64,000 nt of DNA from Variovorax sp. PAMC26660. GTDB taxonomy: Bacteria > Pseudomonadota > Gammaproteobacteria > Burkholderiales > Burkholderiaceae_C. The position numbers and the translations under genes are program-made. Where the stretch lies: NCBI RefSeq assembly GCF_014302995.1, contig NZ_CP060295.1, positions 1,364,001-1,428,000 of the forward strand, read 5' to 3'. Within the stretch, counting starts at the first letter, position 1. Each line of letters starts with the position of its first letter. Under the pieces are notes generated by a model. The model saw nothing but the letters and a program-made list of their open reading frames with translations, made no database searches and was not told the DNA's origin. This document shows, piece by piece, positions 2,806 to 64,000 of the stretch.

Positions 2806-4446
2806 TCAACCGATCACCTTGGTGGCGGTGATGTCCAGCTTGGGCGGGTTCTCGAAGGTGTGGAACGGTGCGGGCGAAGGCACTTCCCATTCGAGGCCTT
2901 CGGCGCCTTCCCATGGCTTTTGTGCAGCCTTCTCGCCCTTGCCGCGCATGGTCGGCAACACGACGAACAGGAAGAAGTAGACCTGGGCGAAACCGAAGAA
3001 GAAGGCACCGACAGACGCCACGGCGTTGAAGTCGGCAAACTGCATCGGGTAGTCGGCATAGCGTCGCGGCATGCCGGCCAGGCCCAGGAAGTGCATCGGG
3101 AAGAAGGTGACGTTGAACGAGATCAACGACCACCAGAAGTGAACCTTGCCGCGCGTTTCGTTGTACATCACGCCGGTCCACTTGGGCACCCAGTAGTAGA
3201 AGCCCGAGAACATGGCGAACAGCGAGCCTGCCACCAGCACGTAGTGGAAGTGGGCCACCACGTAGTACGTGTCCTGCAGTTGCGTGTCGATCGGCGCGAC
3301 TGCGAGGATCAGGCCGGTGAAGCCGCCCATCGTGAACACGAAGATGAAGCCGACCGCGAACAGCATGGGCGTCTCGAAGGTCATCGAGCCCTGCCACATC
3401 GTCGCGATCCAGTTGAAGATCTTCACGGCCGTGGGCACCGCGATCAGCATCGTCGCGTACATGAAGAACAGCTGGCCGGTGAGCGGCATGCCGGTCGTGA
3501 ACATGTGGTGCGCCCACACGATGAACGACAGGATGGCAATCGACGAGGTGGCGTACACCATCGAGGCGTAGCCGAACAGGCGTTTGCGGGCAAAGGCCGG
3601 CACCACCTGGCTGATGATGCCGAAGGCCGGCAAGATCATGATGTAAACCTCGGGGTGGCCGAAGAACCAGAAGATGTGCTGGTACATCACCGGGTCGCCG
3701 CCACCGGCGGGGTTGAAGAAGCTGGTGCCGAAGTGGCGGTCGGTCAGCGTCATCGTGATGGCGCCTGCGAGCACGGGCATCACGGCGATCAGCAGGTAGG
3801 CGGTGATGAGCCAGGTCCAGCAGAACATCGGCATCTTCATCAGCGTCATGCCGGGGGCGCGCATGTTCAGGATGGTCACGATGATGTTGATCGAACCCAT
3901 GATCGACGAGGCGCCCATGATGTGCATCGCGAAGATGCCGGCGTCCATCGAGGGGCCCATCTGCAGCGTGAGCGGCGCGTAGAGCGTCCAGCCTGCAGCG
4001 GGTGCGCCGCCGGGCATGAAGAACGAACCGACCAGCATCAACGCCGCGGGAATCAGCAGCCAGAAGCTGAAGTTGTTCATGCGCGCGAACGCCATGTCGG
4101 AGGCGCCCACCTGCAGCGGGATCATCCAGTTCGCGAAGCCCACGAAGGCCGGCATGATGGCGCCGAACACCATGATCAGGCCGTGCATGGTGGTGAACTG
4201 GTTGAACAGTTCGGGGTTCACCAGTTGCAGGCCGGGCTGGAACAGCTCGGCGCGGATCAGCAGCGCGAGCACACCGCCCACCATCAGCATCGTGAAGCTG
4301 AACAGCAGGTAGAGCGTGCCGATGTCCTTGTGGTTGGTCGCGAAGACCCAGCGGCGCCAGCCGGTGGGCGCCCCGTGATGCTCGTCGTGGCCGTCGTGTG
4401 CGTGGTCGCCGGGGGCGTGACCGTGGGGGTCGAGGACTGCACTCAT
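2806..4446 (-). CDS. ctaD: Cytochrome c oxidase subunit I
   Basis: Catalytic subunit carrying heme a and the heme a3-CuB centre, where oxygen is reduced. The protein is 546 residues with about 12 membrane helices. Key residues are visible: His88 (TMHG, heme a), His264 with Tyr268 in GHPEVY (CuB and the crosslinked tyrosine), the His313-His314 pair (CuB), and His399/His401 in VAHFHYVL (the two hemes). ATG 4446 was chosen over an upstream in-frame start because AAGGA lies at the right distance and the upstream residues overlap subunit II coding. The first 25 residues are rich in His and Asp, which is common in this clade. Confidence 0.98.
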   Translation of the reverse strand: MSAVLDPHGHAPGDHAHDGHDEHHGAPTGWRRWVFATNHKDIGTLYLLFSFTMLMVGGVLALLIRAELFQPGLQLVNPELFNQFTTMHGLIMVFGAIMPAFVGFANWMIPLQVGASDMAFARMNNFSFWLLIPAALMLVGSFFMPGGAPAAGWTLYAPLTLQMGPSMDAGIFAMHIMGASSIMGSINIIVTILNMRAPGMTLMKMPMFCWTWLITAYLLIAVMPVLAGAITMTLTDRHFGTSFFNPAGGGDPVMYQHIFWFFGHPEVYIMILPAFGIISQVVPAFARKRLFGYASMVYATSSIAILSFIVWAHHMFTTGMPLTGQLFFMYATMLIAVPTAVKIFNWIATMWQGSMTFETPMLFAVGFIFVFTMGGFTGLILAVAPIDTQLQDTYYVVAHFHYVLVAGSLFAMFSGFYYWVPKWTGVMYNETRGKVHFWWSLISFNVTFFPMHFLGLAGMPRRYADYPMQFADFNAVASVGAFFFGFAQVYFFLFVVLPTMRGKGEKAAQKPWEGAEGLEWEVPSPAPFHTFENPPKLDITATKVIG

Positions 4447-4489
4447 TTCGTTGTTCCTTGCAATTTCTTCTTCGCGGGGCGCTGCCGGG

Positions 4490-5668
4490 TCACTTGCCGC
4501 GCAGGGCAAGCACTTCGGCCGGCTGCACCAGCTGGCCCGTCTTGTTCGACCAGCTGTTCTTGGTGTACGTGGCCACTGCCGCGAGGTCGGTATCGCTCAG
4601 TTGTTTCCAGGACGGCATCGCGCCGTTGTTCTGGCCGTTGAGCAGCACGTGCAATTGCACCGAGTGATCGGCGTCGAGCACCTTCGGATCGCCGTCGAGC
4701 GCCTTGATCGGGCCCGCGCCCTTGCCGTTGGCCTGGTGGCAGGCGGCGCAATTGGAGGCATAGACCTTCTCGCCGCGAACCAGCATGTCGGGCAGCGTCC
4801 AGACCTTGGTCGGGTCGTCGAGCTTGGCGGCGGCGACCTTGCGCTGGTCGGCCACCCAGGCCGTGTAGTCACCGGCCGAAACCACCTTCACGTGGATCGG
4901 CATGTAGGCGTGTTCCTTGCCGCACAGTTCCTGGCACTGGCCGTAGTAATCGCCGATGGTCTCGGCACGGAACCAGGTGTCGCGCACGAAGCCGGGAATC
5001 GCGTCCTGCTTGAGGCCCAGTTGCGGCACGGCGAACGCGTGGATCACGTCGTTGGCGGTGGTGATGATGCGGATCTTCTTGTTGACCGGCACCACCAGCG
5101 GGTAGTCGACCTTGAGCAGGTAGTCGTCGGGCATCACGCCCTTGGCGCCTGCATCGGACATCGCGCGCTGCGAGCTGTCGAGCGTGGAGATGAAGGCCAG
5201 GCCCTCGCCTTCGCCGTTCAGGTAGTCGTAGCCCCACTTCCACTGGTAGCCCGTGGTCTTGATCGTGAGGTCGGCGTTGGTGGTGTCCTTCTGGGCCACC
5301 AGCACCTTGGTGGCGGGCAGCGCCATCACGATCACGATGAGGAAAGGCACGATGGTCCAGATGACCTCGACCACCACCGATTCATGGAAGTTGGCCGCCT
5401 TGTGGCCGACCGACTTGCGGTGCTTCCAGATCGAATAGAACATGACCGCGAACACGGAGACGAAGATGACCGTGCACAGAATCATCATGACCGTGTGCAG
5501 GAAATGCTGTTCCTGCGCGATCTTGGTCACACCGACCGGAAGATTCAGCTGGCGCACCGAAGGGCCGCCGGGCAGATCGTTGACTGCGTGCGCCGCGCTG
5601 CTGAACGCCGCGCCGGCCGCCAGCAACAGATTCGCCGGCCTGTACTTATTGCGCCAAATGCTCTTCAT
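4490..5668 (-). CDS. ctaC: Cytochrome c oxidase subunit II with fused cytochrome c domain
   Basis: Takes electrons from cytochrome c into the oxidase through CuA. The 392-residue protein has a signal sequence, two membrane helices (about 55-80 and 97-118) and a periplasmic cupredoxin domain with CuA ligands His210, Cys245, Glu247, Cys249, His253 and Met256. A C-terminal class I cytochrome c domain (about residues 295-380) carries the heme-attachment motif CAACH (307-311) and a likely axial Met351. The fused heme domain makes this a caa3-like subunit II. ATG 5668 was preferred; an in-frame GTG at 5677 adds three residues. Confidence 0.96.
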   Translation of the reverse strand: MKSIWRNKYRPANLLLAAGAAFSSAAHAVNDLPGGPSVRQLNLPVGVTKIAQEQHFLHTVMMILCTVIFVSVFAVMFYSIWKHRKSVGHKAANFHESVVVEVIWTIVPFLIVIVMALPATKVLVAQKDTTNADLTIKTTGYQWKWGYDYLNGEGEGLAFISTLDSSQRAMSDAGAKGVMPDDYLLKVDYPLVVPVNKKIRIITTANDVIHAFAVPQLGLKQDAIPGFVRDTWFRAETIGDYYGQCQELCGKEHAYMPIHVKVVSAGDYTAWVADQRKVAAAKLDDPTKVWTLPDMLVRGEKVYASNCAACHQANGKGAGPIKALDGDPKVLDADHSVQLHVLLNGQNNGAMPSWKQLSDTDLAAVATYTKNSWSNKTGQLVQPAEVLALRGK

Positions 5669-56959: not shown

Positions 56960-57997
56960 TCAGGCCGCAGCGACCTGCACCGTCGAAGCCTGTCGGCTTT
57001 CGGTGATCGTGAAACGCACCGGCAGGAATCGCTCGATCACCGCGCAGTTGGTACGCGTGTGCTCCGTCACCTCGCTGCAGGTGAAGGTGCCGGCCTTCTT
57101 GCCTTGCCACGCCGCAAGCGCCAGCAGCAGGGCCAGTTGGTCGGCCAGATGCGGGCCGATAGCCGCCTCGCTCTTCTGGAACTCGCGCAACTCTTTCACG
57201 AGGCCGTGTGCCACCTGCTCGGCGCTGAGCGACTTCTCGCCGAAAGCCGTGAAGACCTCGGTGACATGCTCGTACGCCAGTGTGGCGAGCAACGCATTGC
57301 CGGGGCCTTCGTTCTGGCGCACCGCGCCGTAGCGAAGCTGCTCGCCCGACCACCCCATCGCAGCCCCGAGCGTTTCGAGTTCGCGCGTCGGCACATGACG
57401 CGGCAGGCCCGGTGCCAGGCATTCCGCGTAACCCGATTGCAGCGCGCCGCGCGTCATCAGCTCGAAGGACTGCAGCGCACCCGGCGCGGGCACGATGGTC
57501 GCTTCGACCTCGCCACCTCCAGCCGGATAGAAGCCGCAGCGGCGCAGCATCAGTTGCAGATCTGCGCCCAGTCGACGCACCAAGGGTGCGAAGGCCCGCT
57601 CCAGGAAATGGAAAGGCGGTGCCATCGGGTTGTGTGTGCCGCCGCTCAGGTGCACACGGCTCTGCGCGCCAGCCAGCAGCAACGGCGGCAGCACCGTTTG
57701 CAGCACCAGCATGCAGCTGCCCGCGCTGGCAATTGCAAAGCGGTAGTCGCCTGCGCGCACCGGGCCTGGTGTGAAGCGCAGCGACTGCGAGCCCAGCTCG
57801 GCGCCTTCGACCTGCGCACCGCTGATTTCTGCAGCCGCGTTCACACACGCAAGGTGCTGGCGCATCAGACCCGGCTTGGCGCGGCCCGCGCGAATCTTCT
57901 CGATGGCCAGGGGCCGGCCCGTGACCACCGACAGCGCGAGACTGGTGCGCAGGATCTGGCCACCGCCTTCGCCTTGGGAGCCGTCGAGTTCGATCAT
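56960..57997 (-). CDS. rtcA: RNA 3'-terminal phosphate cyclase
   Basis: A 345-residue enzyme converting RNA 3'-phosphate to 2',3'-cyclic phosphate with ATP, the end form RtcB can ligate. MIELDGSQGEGGGQILRTSLALSVVTGRPL is the N-terminal signature; LSGGTHNPMAPPFHFLERAFAPL and the C-terminal EVTEHTRTNCAVIERFL, whose His313 is the probable AMP-accepting residue, follow. It is the last gene of the repair operon and overlaps the nucleotidyltransferase stop by 4 bp, with its start inside that gene's end. Confidence 0.95.
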   Translation of the reverse strand: MIELDGSQGEGGGQILRTSLALSVVTGRPLAIEKIRAGRAKPGLMRQHLACVNAAAEISGAQVEGAELGSQSLRFTPGPVRAGDYRFAIASAGSCMLVLQTVLPPLLLAGAQSRVHLSGGTHNPMAPPFHFLERAFAPLVRRLGADLQLMLRRCGFYPAGGGEVEATIVPAPGALQSFELMTRGALQSGYAECLAPGLPRHVPTRELETLGAAMGWSGEQLRYGAVRQNEGPGNALLATLAYEHVTEVFTAFGEKSLSAEQVAHGLVKELREFQKSEAAIGPHLADQLALLLALAAWQGKKAGTFTCSEVTEHTRTNCAVIERFLPVRFTITESRQASTVQVAAA

Positions 57998-58848
57998 TCA
58001 TGGCCTCCTTCGTGGGCGCGAGATGCTGCCGCCTCGAAGCGCAACACCGTCTCGCAAAGAAAGGCATCGAGCCCCGTGTCCTTGGCCTGCGGCGGCGGCG
58101 TGATCGGCTCGGCCGCGTTGGCCGCCAGTTCGGTCTCGATGAATGCATGGATGCCCGGCCAGCGCGGGCTGGTCGCGGCTTCGCCGGCGCGCATCTTCAC
58201 TTCGAGCAGCGCGTTGATTTCGTCGATGAGCGCGGCATCGTGCACGGCATCGAGCGTGCGCTGCGCCAGTTCGGCGAAGCGCATCGGCGGCACGCCAGGT
58301 TGCGTGCGGATCCAGCGCGCGGCCAGCAGCGGACGCAGCACGTAGAGGTACTTCTTGTAGCGCACCTCGTCGGCCTGCAGGTGCTCGCGGAAGTTCTTCT
58401 TTGCCATCGAGGTGTAGTGATGCCACGCGCGCGCGTTGGAGAACACCGCCTCCGACAGCGCACGAAAACGCGGCATGGCCAGCGCGTCGTCGCGGTACAC
58501 GATGGGCGAGCGCAGCCATTCGAGCAGCGTCGGGTTCGACTCGCGCATCAGGCCCAGCGCCTTGCGCAGGTCCCAGCCGTTGATGTCCAGGTCGCCGCTG
58601 ATCGGCACCTCGATCACGTCGCGGTGCGGCATCACCGTGAGATACCACGGCAGGCGACTCACGTAGATGAAGCGCACATCGTAGTCGCTGTCGGGCGAGG
58701 CAAAACCCCAGCCACGGCTGCCGGATTCGCAGGCGAACAGCACGGTCACGTCGTGCCTCGCTTCGATGGCGCGCAGGTTCTCCATGATCTCCGCGCGCAT
58801 GGCGGGATCGATCGGATGGGCGGAGCGCAGGAATTCTTGGGTGCTCAT
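57994..58848 (-). CDS. Nucleotidyltransferase domain protein of the RNA-repair operon
   Basis: A 284-residue polymerase-beta-fold nucleotidyltransferase (COG3541-like). The catalytic motif is FACESGSRGWGFASPDSDYDVRFIYV, with GSRG and the D-x-D pair. A helical C-terminal part contains KNFREHLQADEVRYKKYLYVLRPLLAARWI. Such proteins recur in RtcB operons and may add nucleotides to damaged RNA ends or tRNAs; the precise activity is not known. ATG 58848 gives MSTQEFLRSAHP; the upstream in-frame extension shadows the RNase Z gene. Confidence 0.88.
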   Translation of the reverse strand: MSTQEFLRSAHPIDPAMRAEIMENLRAIEARHDVTVLFACESGSRGWGFASPDSDYDVRFIYVSRLPWYLTVMPHRDVIEVPISGDLDINGWDLRKALGLMRESNPTLLEWLRSPIVYRDDALAMPRFRALSEAVFSNARAWHHYTSMAKKNFREHLQADEVRYKKYLYVLRPLLAARWIRTQPGVPPMRFAELAQRTLDAVHDAALIDEINALLEVKMRAGEAATSPRWPGIHAFIETELAANAAEPITPPPQAKDTGLDAFLCETVLRFEAAASRAHEGGHE

Positions 58849-58871: not shown

Positions 58872-59825
58872 TCAGGCGCGGGTGACGGTCACCTTGCCGG
58901 CGCTGTCGAGTTCGAACACGTCCAGGTCGTTGGCCAGGAATGCATTGCCTCGGTAGGGGGCCTGGGTCTCTGTCATCAGTTCCCGCATGCCCTCTTCGTT
59001 CTGATGTCGTGCGCTGAAATGCGTCAGCACAAGGTTGGGTACTTCCACGGATTGCGCAAACTCGGCCAGCAAGCGCGCCGAGCTGTGCATCGGGCCAGGG
59101 CCGACCTTGTCGAGCACTTCCTGCGTGTACGTGGCTTCGTGCACCAGCAGTTGAGCGCCTTCGCAGGCAGCACGCAGCAGCGCGGGCTCGGCGTTGTCGC
59201 CACCAATCACCGCGCTGGCCGTGTCGATCTGCGTCTCCGTGAAATCGGCACTGCGCAGCACCGCGCCGTTGAAAGGCACGTCCTCGCCGGTCTGCAGCGC
59301 ACGCCATGCCGGGCCGGGCGGAAAACCGAGCGCACGCAGCGCATCGGCCTTCAGCCGGACGCGCCGGGTTTGCACCTGCACACGGTAGGCGTGGCTGGGT
59401 ACGCGATGGCGCAACACGTGGCGCTCGATGCGCAGGCCGGGTGCTTCGTACACCAGTGGTTGCGCTTCGACATCCACATGCTCGACCTCGTAGGGCAGGT
59501 GCAGGTCGGTCAACTGGCGCGTGGCCTGGAACCATTCCCACACCGGCAACGGCGCGATCAGCTTCAACGGCTTCATGCGCTTGCCCATGCCCGCGCTCGC
59601 GAGCAAACCCGGCAAGCCATAGCAATGGTCACCGTGCACATGCGTGATGCAAACGGCGGCCATGTCGTGCATCGACAGCGGCGTTTGCAGCAGACGGTGC
59701 TGCGTGCCTTCGCCGCAGTCGATCAGGAACCAGTCGGCGCCGAGCACCGTCTGCACGGCGAGGCCGGAGACGTTGCGGTTGCGCGTGGGAGTGCCTGAAG
59801 AGGTTCCCAGAAAAGTCAGTTTCAT
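58872..59825 (-). CDS. rnz: Ribonuclease Z-like metallo-beta-lactamase-fold nuclease
   Basis: A 317-residue tRNase Z family protein. MKLTFLGTSSGTPTRNRNVSGLAV is the family start, ITHVHGDHCYGLPGLLAS holds the zinc motif HxHxDH, and VLTHFSARH supplies another ligand. RNase Z removes tRNA 3' trailers. Within a repair operon it may trim RNAs before ligation, or process the tRNA-like leader; both are inferred. ATG 59825 was chosen; ATG 59828 would add one Met. Confidence 0.92.
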   Translation of the reverse strand: MKLTFLGTSSGTPTRNRNVSGLAVQTVLGADWFLIDCGEGTQHRLLQTPLSMHDMAAVCITHVHGDHCYGLPGLLASAGMGKRMKPLKLIAPLPVWEWFQATRQLTDLHLPYEVEHVDVEAQPLVYEAPGLRIERHVLRHRVPSHAYRVQVQTRRVRLKADALRALGFPPGPAWRALQTGEDVPFNGAVLRSADFTETQIDTASAVIGGDNAEPALLRAACEGAQLLVHEATYTQEVLDKVGPGPMHSSARLLAEFAQSVEVPNLVLTHFSARHQNEEGMRELMTETQAPYRGNAFLANDLDVFELDSAGKVTVTRA

Positions 59826-59836
59826 CATCACTTCGA

Positions 59837-60475
59837 TCACTCCCTGCGTATCAACGCACACATCGCGGCATCGGCGGCGACGCGCTCCCAGCTCCAGTAT
59901 CGACGCCCGCCCTCCGGTCGCGCCGCGATCATCGCCTTGAGTTTCTCGATCCGATCGGCATCGCCCCAGCGGACCATCGTCTGGATCGCGACAACGCGCA
60001 AGCTCCACCATTTGCTTTGCAGCGCTGCGTCGACTTCGGCCAGAGCCTTCTCGGTGGGCTTCGTTTCACCCAGCGCCCGAAGACGATTCGTTTGCTCCCC
60101 CAGCAGATTCGCACCGGGCCCGGCCGAACGAACCCGTTCACGGCGGGCACGACGGCATGCCAGGCAGCGCACGGCTCTGCTCTCAATATGGCCGTGTACC
60201 GTTTCGTACCACCACTTCTGCTGCTTCGCGGTCCACACCTCCTGGGCGCCGCAATCGCAGCACACAAAGGGCTGCGCGGCATAGAAGGTGGGCAGAGGCC
60301 CATAGGTGTTGTTGTACCGCAGGAGCACCGACCGATCGGCGGGCTCATCGTCCGATGCATACGCCCCGACCCGTGGCAACCGGACATCCGGCTTGAACGA
60401 GTGCGTGGCCGGCACCGCCGCACGTTGGCGGCGGCGTGCCTTGATCTCGACACGGCGTTGCTTGTTGCTTTTCAT
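59837..60475 (-). CDS. Zinc-ribbon domain protein of the RNA-repair operon
   Basis: A 212-residue basic protein. The N-terminal 25 residues are rich in Lys and Arg. A zinc-ribbon lies at about 70-110: CCDCGAQEVWTAKQQKWWYETVHG followed by CLACRRARR, the zf-trcl type. The C-terminal part has HEAT-like helices (WWSLRVVAIQTMVRWGDADRIEKLKAMI). It probably binds nucleic acid. Proteins of this type occur beside rtcB in other bacteria. No closer function is known to me. Confidence 0.82.
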   Translation of the reverse strand: MKSNKQRRVEIKARRRQRAAVPATHSFKPDVRLPRVGAYASDDEPADRSVLLRYNNTYGPLPTFYAAQPFVCCDCGAQEVWTAKQQKWWYETVHGHIESRAVRCLACRRARRERVRSAGPGANLLGEQTNRLRALGETKPTEKALAEVDAALQSKWWSLRVVAIQTMVRWGDADRIEKLKAMIAARPEGGRRYWSWERVAADAAMCALIRRE

Positions 60476-60575: not shown

Positions 60576-61796
<1,221 letters not shown>

Positions 61797-61831: not shown

Positions 61832-62332
61832 CTACTTGCAAGAGGCCCAGGGCCACTTCTTGAATGCCGCGATGAGTCCTTCGTATGTGCGCAGCGGGAA
61901 ATCGTGCTCCACCCAGAGTTCGCGGTACTTCGCGAGCCCCAAGTCCACATAGATGCGCTCCAGGATCGCGTGGATGTTGCGCACCAGGTCCACGCGCTGA
62001 ATGGTTCCGTGGTCCAGCACCTCGTAGTCGTCCATGGCGGTGATGCCCCAGCTTGCCCAATCGCGATAGCGGCGCAGCTCGAAAGCCAGGTCTTCCTTAT
62101 CGCCCGTCACCACAAGGTGAACTTCTCCGGGTTCGTCCATGAAGACTGCCGCGGCGTGCTGTGCACCCTTTACCAGGTCGAGCCCCATGCGGGCGAGGTC
62201 GCCCAGCGAATCGTGCAGGTATGACACCGCGAAGTCCATGGGACCGGCATCGGCACGAAAGCTCAACGTGGCCCAGCCGGTGCCGCTCAGCACATAGCCG
62301 ATCCGTTCATGGGTGCGTTCTTCTTCCAACAT
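61832..62332 (-). CDS. Uncharacterised protein of the RNA-repair operon
   Basis: A 166-residue protein I do not recognise. It starts MLEEERTHERIGYVLSGTGWATLSFRA, then continues with FMDEPGEVHLVVTGDKEDLAFELRRYRDWASWG and ends with a Trp/Lys-rich FKKWPWASCK. There is no signal peptide or membrane helix, and it is acidic overall. It lies 35 bp upstream of rtcB and 67 bp after the slipin gene in the same direction, so a role with RtcB is inferred. ATG 62332 is preferred over TTG 62356. Confidence 0.75.
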   Translation of the reverse strand: MLEEERTHERIGYVLSGTGWATLSFRADAGPMDFAVSYLHDSLGDLARMGLDLVKGAQHAAAVFMDEPGEVHLVVTGDKEDLAFELRRYRDWASWGITAMDDYEVLDHGTIQRVDLVRNIHAILERIYVDLGLAKYRELWVEHDFPLRTYEGLIAAFKKWPWASCK

Positions 62333-62399
62333 TTTCTTCTTTCTTTGGAGTGACAACGACGATGCACGCGCATCGGGTCGTTGTCTCTTCTTTCATCAC

Positions 62400-63551
62400 T
62401 CAAGGCGCGTTCGGCCGCAGCGTCACCAGCCCGTTGAGCACCTGGTCCAGACCGCCGATCACCGAGATCTTGTCGATCCGTTCCGCCACGCGCTCCAGCG
62501 TCTCGAGTTCCTTCATGCGCAATGCGATGGGGCTTCCCTCCATCACCTTGGCGGTGTTCAGCAGCGAGCGCGTGGCCGCGGTTTCCTCGCGGCGGCGGAT
62601 CACGTTGGCCTGGGCCGACTTCTCGGCCTCCACCACCTGGGCAAGGATGGTCTTCATCTCGCCGGGCAAGATGATGTCCTTCACGCCCACGCTTTCCAGC
62701 GCTATGCCCGAACCCTGCAGCCGCTCACGCACCTGCGCCAGCACGGTCTGGTCGATGGCCGCCTTGTTCTCCAGCAGCGCATCGAGCGTCTGCTCGCCCA
62801 CCGCGGCACGCAGACCGAACTGCAGTTCGCGGTACACATGCTCGGCCGGCTTCGGCATTTGTGCCATCGCCTGCCGCACGTCGACGAAGCGCCACACGGC
62901 GGACAGGTTCAGCCGCAGCCCCACCTTGTCGCGGGTCAGGATTTCCTGTCCGCTCACTTCGGCGATCTGCGAACGCAGGTCCACGCAAGTCACCGCCACC
63001 TGACGGTTGAAGCGCCAGAAACCGTGGTTGCCCGGAGGCAGCAGTTCCTGCATCTGGCCCTGGAGCGTCAGCACGCCGGCATGGAACTCGGGCACCTGCA
63101 CCAGCAGCACGCCGTCGAGCCCCTGCACCGCACGCGGACGCAGGGCCACGCTCTGCAACTTCGCCAGCAACTCGGCCGGCAGACGCGCATCGGCCGCCAC
63201 ATCGATCACTTCGACGCGCTGCTCGCGCAGTCCACGCCAGTACAGTTTGCGCGTGGCAGGCGGCAGGATCTGCACCAGCACGCCGTCTTCGTGGCGCAGG
63301 CCGGCCTGGGTTTCGCCCAACGACACCTGCACGAACTCGCGCTCGACCAGTTCAGGTTCATGCGCCAGGAAGTAGTCGGCCAACTCGTGCTCGAACACCG
63401 GTTCGGCAAGCGAGAAGCGCTCCAGCTTGATGGTGTCGAAGCCCGAGAACACCCGGTGCTTTCCGGGGCCGAGCAGTTGCTCGAAGTCGTCATTGCGCAG
63501 CAGCAGCGCGCGTTCGTTCTTCTTGATCGTGATTTGATTGAAACCCAGCAT
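62400..63551 (-). CDS. Slipin (SPFH/band 7 family) protein
   Basis: A 383-residue stomatin-like protein. It begins MLGFNQITIKKNERALLLRNDDFEQLLGPGKHRVF, and the SPFH core covers about residues 135-300 with QEILTRDKVGLRLNLSAVWRFVDVRQAM and SGIALESVGVKDIILPGEMKTILAQVVEAEKSAQANVIRRREETAATRS. No strong N-terminal membrane helix is present, unlike classic slipins. Slipins recur in RtcB operons; they form membrane-linked oligomers, but their role in RNA repair is unproven. ATG 63551 (after AAGAAA) is preferred over GTG 63566. Confidence 0.9.
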   Translation of the reverse strand: MLGFNQITIKKNERALLLRNDDFEQLLGPGKHRVFSGFDTIKLERFSLAEPVFEHELADYFLAHEPELVEREFVQVSLGETQAGLRHEDGVLVQILPPATRKLYWRGLREQRVEVIDVAADARLPAELLAKLQSVALRPRAVQGLDGVLLVQVPEFHAGVLTLQGQMQELLPPGNHGFWRFNRQVAVTCVDLRSQIAEVSGQEILTRDKVGLRLNLSAVWRFVDVRQAMAQMPKPAEHVYRELQFGLRAAVGEQTLDALLENKAAIDQTVLAQVRERLQGSGIALESVGVKDIILPGEMKTILAQVVEAEKSAQANVIRRREETAATRSLLNTAKVMEGSPIALRMKELETLERVAERIDKISVIGGLDQVLNGLVTLRPNAP

Positions 63552-63689
63552 TTTCTTGACTTCCACTCGTTGTGCGGTTCGGTTGTTCGACTCGTTCGTT
63601 CATTCAATCCAGGCCCTCGAAGGGCAGGCGGCGGGCACTGCGGTGGGCCAGGGCTGTCGTGCAGCGGTCGCGCGGTTCGGTGGATGCCT

Positions 63690-63888
63690 GGCGTTGCCAC
63701 CTGGGCAACGCCGTCACTTCCCTCGCCGTCGATGACTGCACGCAGTTCCTTGCCGCACACACGGTGCGCAAGCCGCCTGCGCTTGGCACGGTGTCGCGCG
63801 CCGCAGGGCCTCTTTGCCCTGCGCCACACGCTCCGGTGTGCCGGGGCGGGGAGCTTTCGCTCCATCAGATGGCGGTGCAAGCACCGCC
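63690..63888 (-). ncRNA. Hairpin-rich leader between the tRNA-like element and slipin
   Basis: Five separate perfect hairpins occur within 200 nt, in minus-strand order: GGCGGTGC/GCACCGCC (63888-63871), GGAGC-GAAA-GCTCC with a GNRA loop (63863-63850), CCGG-CACA-CCGG (63844-63833), CGCAGGGC/GCCCTGCG (63823-63802) and GGCGTTGCC/GGCAACGCC (63712-63690). No conserved ORF is present. It continues directly from the tRNA-like element and ends 138 bp before the slipin ATG; that remaining stretch holds nothing I recognise. Confidence 0.5.
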
Positions 63889-63889
63889 G

Positions 63890-63957
63890 GGGTTTTTCGC
63901 GGGAATCGAACCCGCAACGCCATGTGGTTAGCACGGTGCTCAACCATGAGCAAAACT
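63890..63957 (-). ncRNA. tRNA-like RNA leading the rtc operon
   Basis: On the minus strand three tRNA arms occur in order: D-like arm GCTCATGGTTGAGC (63951-63938), anticodon-like arm CCGTG-CTAACCA-CATGG (63936-63920) and T-arm GCGGG-TTCGATT-CCCGC (63915-63899). The acceptor is reduced to GTTTT (63956-63952) with AAAAC (63896-63892), with no linker bases 8-9 and no CCA. It is therefore tRNA-like rather than a functional tRNA, similar in idea to the tRNA-mimicking module of bacterial Y RNAs found beside rtc genes. Confidence 0.6.
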
Positions 63958-64000
63958 GAATCAAGTTCAGTCGCCAGCCAGTTCAACCGCGGCATACCGC

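Follow-up and report, generated by a model that had tools for sequence, protein, structure and literature searches.

A structured RNA with tRNA-like domains lies directly upstream of slipin in bacterial RNA-repair loci

The stretch of DNA analyzed here (the window: 64 kb of the 7.39-Mb genome of Variovorax sp. PAMC26660, G000:C1:1364001-1428000; G denotes genomes and L denotes loci throughout) encodes, on its minus strand, a structured RNA directly 5′ of the gene for a slipin, an SPFH-type scaffold protein, at an RtcR/RtcB RNA-repair locus. That the element is a structured RNA linked to slipin we regard as practically certain. We read the RNA of the window as the partly degenerate form, in the Variovorax lineage, of an uncatalogued class of structured RNA of ∼0.45–0.55 kb. 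A tentative interpretation, to which we assign a probability of roughly 40%, is that these RNAs form a new class of large bacterial RNA with one or two tRNA mimics at the center, produced upon tRNA damage and working with the slipin membrane scaffold. It would then be the equivalent of the Y RNA system without Ro60, perhaps serving to lure tRNA nucleases or repair enzymes to the membrane or to dock them there. A previous sequence-only reading had placed a structured tRNA-like RNA at positions 63690..63957 of the window, at the head of an RNA-repair operon. The RNA is indeed there and the interval lies within the element, but it cuts the element short, which is predicted to run from ∼64080 (outside the window) to slipin at ∼63551.

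On the minus strand, a D-like arm (GCUCA-UGGU-UGAGC; 63938..63951), an anticodon-like arm (CCGUG-CUAACCA-CAUGG; 63920..63936), and a T-arm (GCGGG-UUCGAUU-CCCGC; 63899..63915) were found, all three as previously described. The anticodon-like loop, CUAACCA, has 7 nt and U33, but a pyrimidine, C37, at position 37. The hairpins reported to follow the T-arm are likewise present: hairpin A (GGCGGUG-CUUG-CACCGCC; 63871..63888), hairpin B with a GNRA tetraloop (GGAGC-GAAA-GCUCC; 63850..63863, which most relatives within the genus have as GGGGC-GAAA-GCCCC), and further hairpins, among them one in the 3′ part (GCAGGGC-AAAGAG-GCCCUGC; 63803..63822), which was seen in single-sequence folds. The place taken in relatives by a first tRNA-like domain (TLD1) is occupied by the hairpin ACUGAA-CUUGA-UUCAGU (63955..63971, minus strand), in which a compensatory change from A-U to G-C occurs in two of seven genus genomes; that it is a remnant of TLD1 is a guess. 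Folding energy was below that of every shuffled sequence (z-scores of −4.9 over 361 nt and −3.4 over the 142-nt core). The degeneracy noted for the acceptor was also evident: GUUUU can pair with AAAAC in the genome of the window, but in four of seven genus genomes (G029, G016, G010, and G032) the 5′ strand contains a C, opposite A in at least three of them, and the acceptor was rejected as a conserved helix of the Variovorax lineage on this account. Its bases are also used by the hairpin at 63955..63971, which results in competing folds, and the lineage lacks a CCA end. In the covariance-model search that the sequence-only reading had proposed, the Rfam tRNA model recognized the element at 63891-63956 with 28.0 bits, just below its cut-off of 29 (of six relatives, one gave 30.3 bits), and the YrlA model did not match. 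ARAGORN called no tRNA in the window.

The leader is conserved in seven genomes of the genus, past the end of the window, so that only the portion at 63552..64000 (minus strand) is contained in it. It comprises ∼530 nt, from a sigma-54-like site by the divergent rtcR gene to the start of slipin at ∼63551. This site, TGGCACGCCTGCTGCA, is located at positions 8105-8090 of L002, which corresponds to 64105-64090 in the frame of the window, ∼550 nt 5′ of slipin; from its −12 element, the start of the RNA is predicted at ∼64080 (∼8080 in L002). The same strict pattern was met in five of six related loci; L006 fails, and its counterpart L065 scores 10 of 12. Sites scoring at least 10 of 12 were present in 31 of 77 leaders versus 12 of 1580 control windows. 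A protein-coding leader was ruled out, as 74 of 93 gap runs in the alignment were not multiples of three.

To what extent the arrangement recurs was assessed in a collection containing one genome per species, in which 86 close relatives of the window's slipin were found and the best 80 loci used. These are mostly from Beta- and Gammaproteobacteria and are not independent, 13 of them being Variovorax (L063-L074 and L081), which provided the nearest matches (up to 96% identity). A five-pair T-arm was present 200–560 nt upstream of slipin in 71 of the 80 loci, and in 58 of 67 when Variovorax was left out. On the opposite strand, the motif occurred nine times in 666,674 nt; at this rate, chance alone would give ∼0.4 occurrences in the 28,800 nt that were examined. 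Two or more T-arms were observed in 45 of the 80 leaders, spaced by 71–77 nt in 35 of these; a GNRA hairpin often followed 3′ of the T-arms; and ARAGORN called two abutting tRNA-likes in 9 of 12 loci scanned among L112-L129 (Thiothrix, Methylobacter, and kin). Of 399 genomes from the family of the window, 65 had an RtcR match. Among 30 RtcR loci fetched, all six in which slipin was within reach, including that of the window itself, had a T-arm, versus 1 of the 24 in which it was not. The RNA tracks slipin rather than rtcR. Gene order varies between rtcR-RNA-slipin-rtcB and arrangements with rtcB (and rtcA) upstream of RNA and slipin, the RNA remaining 5′ of slipin; the position at the head of the operon assigned by the previous reading is therefore lineage-specific. 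Among the viral contigs scanned, no relative of the window's slipin was found. As a separate observation, 4 to 17 ordinary tRNA genes are arrayed beside the slipin RNA in 11 of 60 loci scanned (L075-L080, L085, L102, L104, L106, and L107).

Base pairing is conserved between homologous leaders, with the compensatory changes that the sequence-only reading had suggested looking for; the absence of such conservation, which that reading had named as a refutation, is thus not what the leaders show. Covariation was counted as double changes and compared with shuffle controls; phylogeny does not enter these counts. In a core alignment of 23 gamma- and betaproteobacterial loci, 99.0% of the cells were paired and 17 of 29 pairs showed double changes; the covariation score was 0.397, compared with 0.131 for shuffles, and structures slid along the alignment reached at most 38.1% pairing. 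RNAalifold predicted 112 pairs from 17 full leaders, 69 of them with a kept double change. The predicted fold begins with a 5′ three-way junction, continues with the tandem tRNA-likes and hairpins A and B, and ends in a 3′ domain; a CCUCC/GGAGG-type helix, situated a few tens of nt 5′ of slipin, closes the latter. Within the 5′ domain, the two inner helices were 97.6% paired across 29 loci (score 0.502 versus 0.186 for shuffles).

Three covariance models were employed. R1, consisting of sequences from the window's genus only, was scanned over the 399 family genomes and matched in 84. Several of the matches fetched are situated in tRNA arrays, and those beside rtcR were counted as meaningful (G139, G179, G146, G322, G418, G385, and G156, in addition to G000 and G032). 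R2, built from alignment A4 with the window's genus excluded, matched 69 of the 80 slipin leaders within ∼800 nt upstream (46 of 57 held-out ones), a few of the matches being partial; it missed L093-L097, L099-L101, L111, and L115, and its match in L134 lies 1.15 kb off. The window's element was matched over its full length with 44.9 bits. Ordinary tRNAs of the same loci scored ∼26–68 bits, and 45 of the 80 leaders outscored all of them. Because R2 scores ordinary tRNAs too, it was left out of the distribution survey, which relied on R3, a tRNA-free model of the 5′ domain only. In 398 genomes of the phylum, R3 produced 22 matches, two of them strong (54.2 and 51.8 bits) and both with T-arm and slipin downstream; among the other 20, all weak (under 30 bits), one was so linked. 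In 293 genomes of one order, nine matches were obtained. Eight were strong (44.6–65.8 bits; one repeating a match from the phylum scan) and all eight were followed by T-arm and slipin, which the single weak one was not. Thus, all nine distinct strong matches are linked to T-arm and slipin, as is L182 alone of the 21 weak ones, judged within the 1.5 kb fetched; the R2 core is present in all nine and in L182. The last-mentioned locus (G719), with tandem T-arms and slipin, belongs to another class of the phylum than the window, so the RNA may be more widespread. The 5′-domain motif CCGGUG...UAUGCCGC occurred in 34 of 38 leaders versus 26 of 760 control windows. Separately, Pseudomonas leaders devoid of a T-arm (L093-L095 and L099-L101) retain both a sigma-54-like site and this motif. 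In L099-L101, the slipin match at 4001-5524 is doubled (residues ∼1–202 at 36–41% identity, then 64–378 at ∼60%), as if two slipins were placed in tandem or fused.

Whether the tRNA-likes are mimics or genuine tRNAs was addressed by counting anticodon loops with one parser for leaders and control tRNAs. For the first tRNA-like of 25 loci within L112-L140 having at least two T-arms, the loop had 5 nt in 14, 7 nt in four, and another length or none in seven; of 102 control tRNAs, 94 had 7-nt and five had 5-nt loops. When restricted to full 5-bp stems, 5-nt loops were found in 7 of 15 first tRNA-likes versus 2 of 91 controls. Control tRNAs carried T33 in 125 of 137 cases and a purine at position 37 equally often (125/137). 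A normal 7-nt loop is frequent in the second tRNA-like, and in L098-L109 the loop has 7 nt in eight of nine loci with T-arms, the tRNA-like appearing canonical in most. Anticodons differ between near relatives (L076 versus L079; L117 versus L118). Decoding looks dispensable for the tRNA-like, and on the basis of these sequences the tRNA-likes are best read as mimics, some lineages being still close to real tRNA.

The suggestion that the element is a divergent Y RNA was not borne out, whereas the alternative offered with it, a new type beside the Y RNAs, was right in outline. The YrlA model had no match in the window at 62000-64000 up to an E-value of 10 and did not exceed its gathering score of 69 bits in any of 24 genomes. 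Matches below this cut-off occurred in 16 of the 24, but also in 7 of 14 control genomes, and three of five such matches fetched overlie ordinary tRNA pairs; across the TLD1-TLD2 junction of L117 the model scored 31.7 bits, and in L076 20.4 bits. No TROVE/Ro60 match was found in the genome of the window, and among 29 other slipin-locus genomes, whose completeness is not stated, one had a match (G482, 40 bits) and 28 had none. The D, anticodon, and T arms are in normal tRNA order, that is, the tRNA-like is not circularly permuted. At gathering thresholds, Rfam 15 recognized tRNA alone in the leaders of 16 loci (apart from a TPP riboswitch elsewhere in L111), and at E-values up to 10 no non-tRNA family exceeded its own cut-off in the window, L117, or L076. 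Two loci elsewhere in genomes of the survey are worth recording. L205 (G473, the genome that harbors the Aliikangiella locus L109) contains, at 1482-1604, a circularly permuted tRNA whose acceptor is closed by a GCGA loop; it is preceded by the sigma-54-like site TGGCACGGCACCTGCT and followed by a gene that matches NF041916 under its cut-off. This tRNA is YrlA-like (47.1 bits, cut-off 69), and G473 has no TROVE match. At 1501-1636 of L207 (G472, the genome of L107), YrlA scored 40.4 bits, again under its cut-off, off the called tRNAs and downstream of a tRNA array.

Several known systems resemble the leader RNA in part. YrlA (RF02553), from rsr-yrlBA-rtcBA operons, is likewise a tRNA-mimicking noncoding RNA encoded with rtcB and rtcA (PMC7790460; PMC8394870). 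It is described as ∼90–150 nt long (PMC8394870) and as a circularly permuted tRNA (PMC11472068), and its tRNA-like domain was proposed to be a competitive inhibitor of anticodon nuclease (PMC7790460). Carried over to the leader RNA by analogy, such inhibition might hypothetically occur there too. In contrast to YrlA, which is permuted and bound by Rsr/Ro60, the leader RNA is ∼500 nt long, unpermuted, often tandem, and linked to slipin. The OLE gene resides beside the gene of its membrane protein, and we know of no tRNA mimicry by OLE. According to literature abstracts, OLE shares with the leader RNA that it is large and ornate, and forms a ribonucleoprotein at the cell membrane, but it stems from Gram-positive bacteria. 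GOLLD and ROOL are likewise large and structured and occur close to tRNA islands, and a linker of GOLLD sometimes contains tRNAs (PMC12286853), but they are RNAs of phages and prophages, whereas the leader RNA belongs to RNA-repair loci. None of OLE, GOLLD, and ROOL, which are represented in Rfam, matched in the Rfam scans of the leaders. A tRNA-like domain within a longer RNA or mRNA leader is also known from tmRNA, T-box, and thrS-operator RNAs (PMC8394870), but these differ in gene and architecture; families of this type, as far as they are included in Rfam, had no match in the general Rfam scans of the leaders.

From these data, we infer a damage-induced tRNA mimic acting together with slipin. 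In its fullest form, the RNA comprises a 5′ domain, then one or two unpermuted tRNA mimics as the core, followed by hairpin A, the GNRA hairpin, and a 3′ domain, and it would be transcribed as the leader of slipin within RtcR/RtcB RNA-repair gene sets. RtcR is known from elsewhere to activate transcription with sigma-54 upon tRNA damage, and the pair would probably switch on the RNA in the same way here. The RNA itself would presumably be expressed as the functional product, its tRNA-shaped elbow may draw tRNA-handling enzymes (damaging nucleases as well as processing and repair enzymes), and its remainder might tether it to slipin at the membrane.

A number of results weigh against this interpretation. 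In the Pseudomonas loci L093-L095 and L099-L101 the T-arm is missing from the slipin leader; thus, the tRNA mimic is not kept everywhere. The tRNA-like of several Gammaproteobacteria has a normal loop and a CCA end, and some TLD1s have a 7-bp acceptor plus CCA, so some of the tRNA-likes may be real tRNAs. Covariation inside the seven Variovorax-lineage sequences is weak (two pairs with double changes), and the argument from covariation is carried by the broader set of loci. Because the score of the window with R2 is inside the range of ordinary tRNAs, part of the weight for the window rests on its synteny, GNRA hairpin, and promoter. R3 finds no 5′ domain in the window's genus or the other Betaproteobacteria given, although it does match G051, of the same order as the genus; homology of the 5′ domain there rests on motif and synteny. 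Finally, in two leaders scanned, the window's included, the RNA strand showed no terminator-like site between the RNA and the slipin gene, which, together with the location directly 5′ of slipin, fits a cis-acting leader equally well.

Such a leader is the main rival. It would act as a damage sensor, the mimic remaining in the slipin mRNA, where tRNA enzymes cut, bind, or modify it and thereby alter translation or stability of the message. Besides the lack of a terminator-like site in the two leaders and the same-strand position of the RNA immediately ahead of slipin in the loci where it was found, the helix closing the 3′ domain close to slipin in 17 leaders speaks for this idea; the RNA is, however, very large and multi-domain for a leader, and we consider the sensor rather doubtful. 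Size and domain complexity, along with the precedents of OLE, YrlA, and GOLLD, favor an RNA product, and that such a product functions together with slipin is, in our estimate, an even bet. An emergency supply, in which real tRNAs released from the leader replace damaged ones, is unlikely: it could account for the tRNA arrays beside the locus (at least four further tRNAs in 11 of 60 slipin loci), the ARAGORN calls in many leaders, the ordinary loops in eight of nine T-arm loci of L098-L109, and the finding that, in Anabaena, TrcR acts as a repressor of slipin, rtcB, and a tRNA operon (PMC10272220), but not for first tRNA-likes with 5-nt or tetraloop anticodon arms, the pyrimidine at position 37, the missing acceptor pairs and CCA, the anticodons diverging between L076 and L079 and between L117 and L118, or ARAGORN's silence on the window's element.

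A divergent YrlA acting with a Ro60-like protein would share with the leader RNA its operon setting and tRNA mimicry, and the match at the L117 junction and those below cut-off in 16 of 24 genomes could be taken in its favor; given that none of the 24 surpassed 69 bits, that half of the control genomes match below it, that three of five such matches fetched overlie ordinary tRNA pairs, that TROVE was absent from G000 and detected in 1 of 29 other genomes, and that the tRNA-like is unpermuted, it is mostly refuted and highly improbable. A decayed tRNA pseudogene within an ordinary GC-rich leader would agree with the broken acceptor, the score under the Rfam tRNA cut-off, and the few double changes within the genus. 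Across genera, in contrast, double changes keep the pairs, and the R2 arrangement accompanies slipin in 69 of 80 loci; because of this covariation and the unbiased scans, the pseudogene is taken as refuted.

In the window, the gene directly 3′ of the RNA encodes the slipin (62400..63551; PF01145, E 3.3e-28), and the genes following on the same minus strand encode an uncharacterized operon protein of 174 amino acids without Pfam or NCBIfam match (61832..62356), the RNA ligase RtcB (60576..61796; PF01139, E 1.9e-128), a zf_Tbcl protein (59837..60475; PF13451, E 5.1e-13), RNase Z (58872..59828; TIGR02651 with 238 bits, under the curated cut-off of 293), RlaP, a nucleotidyltransferase-like member of the DNA polymerase beta family of the RNA repair pathway (57994..58848; PF10127, E 9.8e-91), and the RNA 3′-phosphate cyclase RtcA (56960..57997; PF01137, E 1.7e-79). 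The divergent RtcR (PF06956 plus sigma-54 activator domains) and a 2′-5′ RNA ligase-like gene are located just outside. The RNase Z is the only homolog of this enzyme found in the genome; that it is a dedicated processing partner of the RNA is unsupported. The RNA is retained in L071 and L073, which are close relatives, although these have no RNase Z match between slipin and rtcA. The presence of an SPFH gene within the rtc locus of Pseudomonas has been noticed, in an account whose available part does not mention the RNA (PMC13086221). Among the matches listed from open-licence literature, in the parts seen, no explained role for slipin in RNA-repair operons was found, and no description of a slipin-leader RNA in open-licence papers, preprints lying outside this search.

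To our knowledge, the targets of RNA-repair operons are known in few bacteria. A conserved tRNA-mimicking RNA that is linked to slipin, and whose loci are recovered by a model containing neither tRNA nor slipin, provides a handle on both the RNA-repair operon and slipin, and it predicts what the system would sense or capture, namely, tRNA-shaped RNA, and where, at the membrane. As tRNA mimicry occurs in such operons without detectable Ro60, mimicry, and not Ro60, may be the principle they share.
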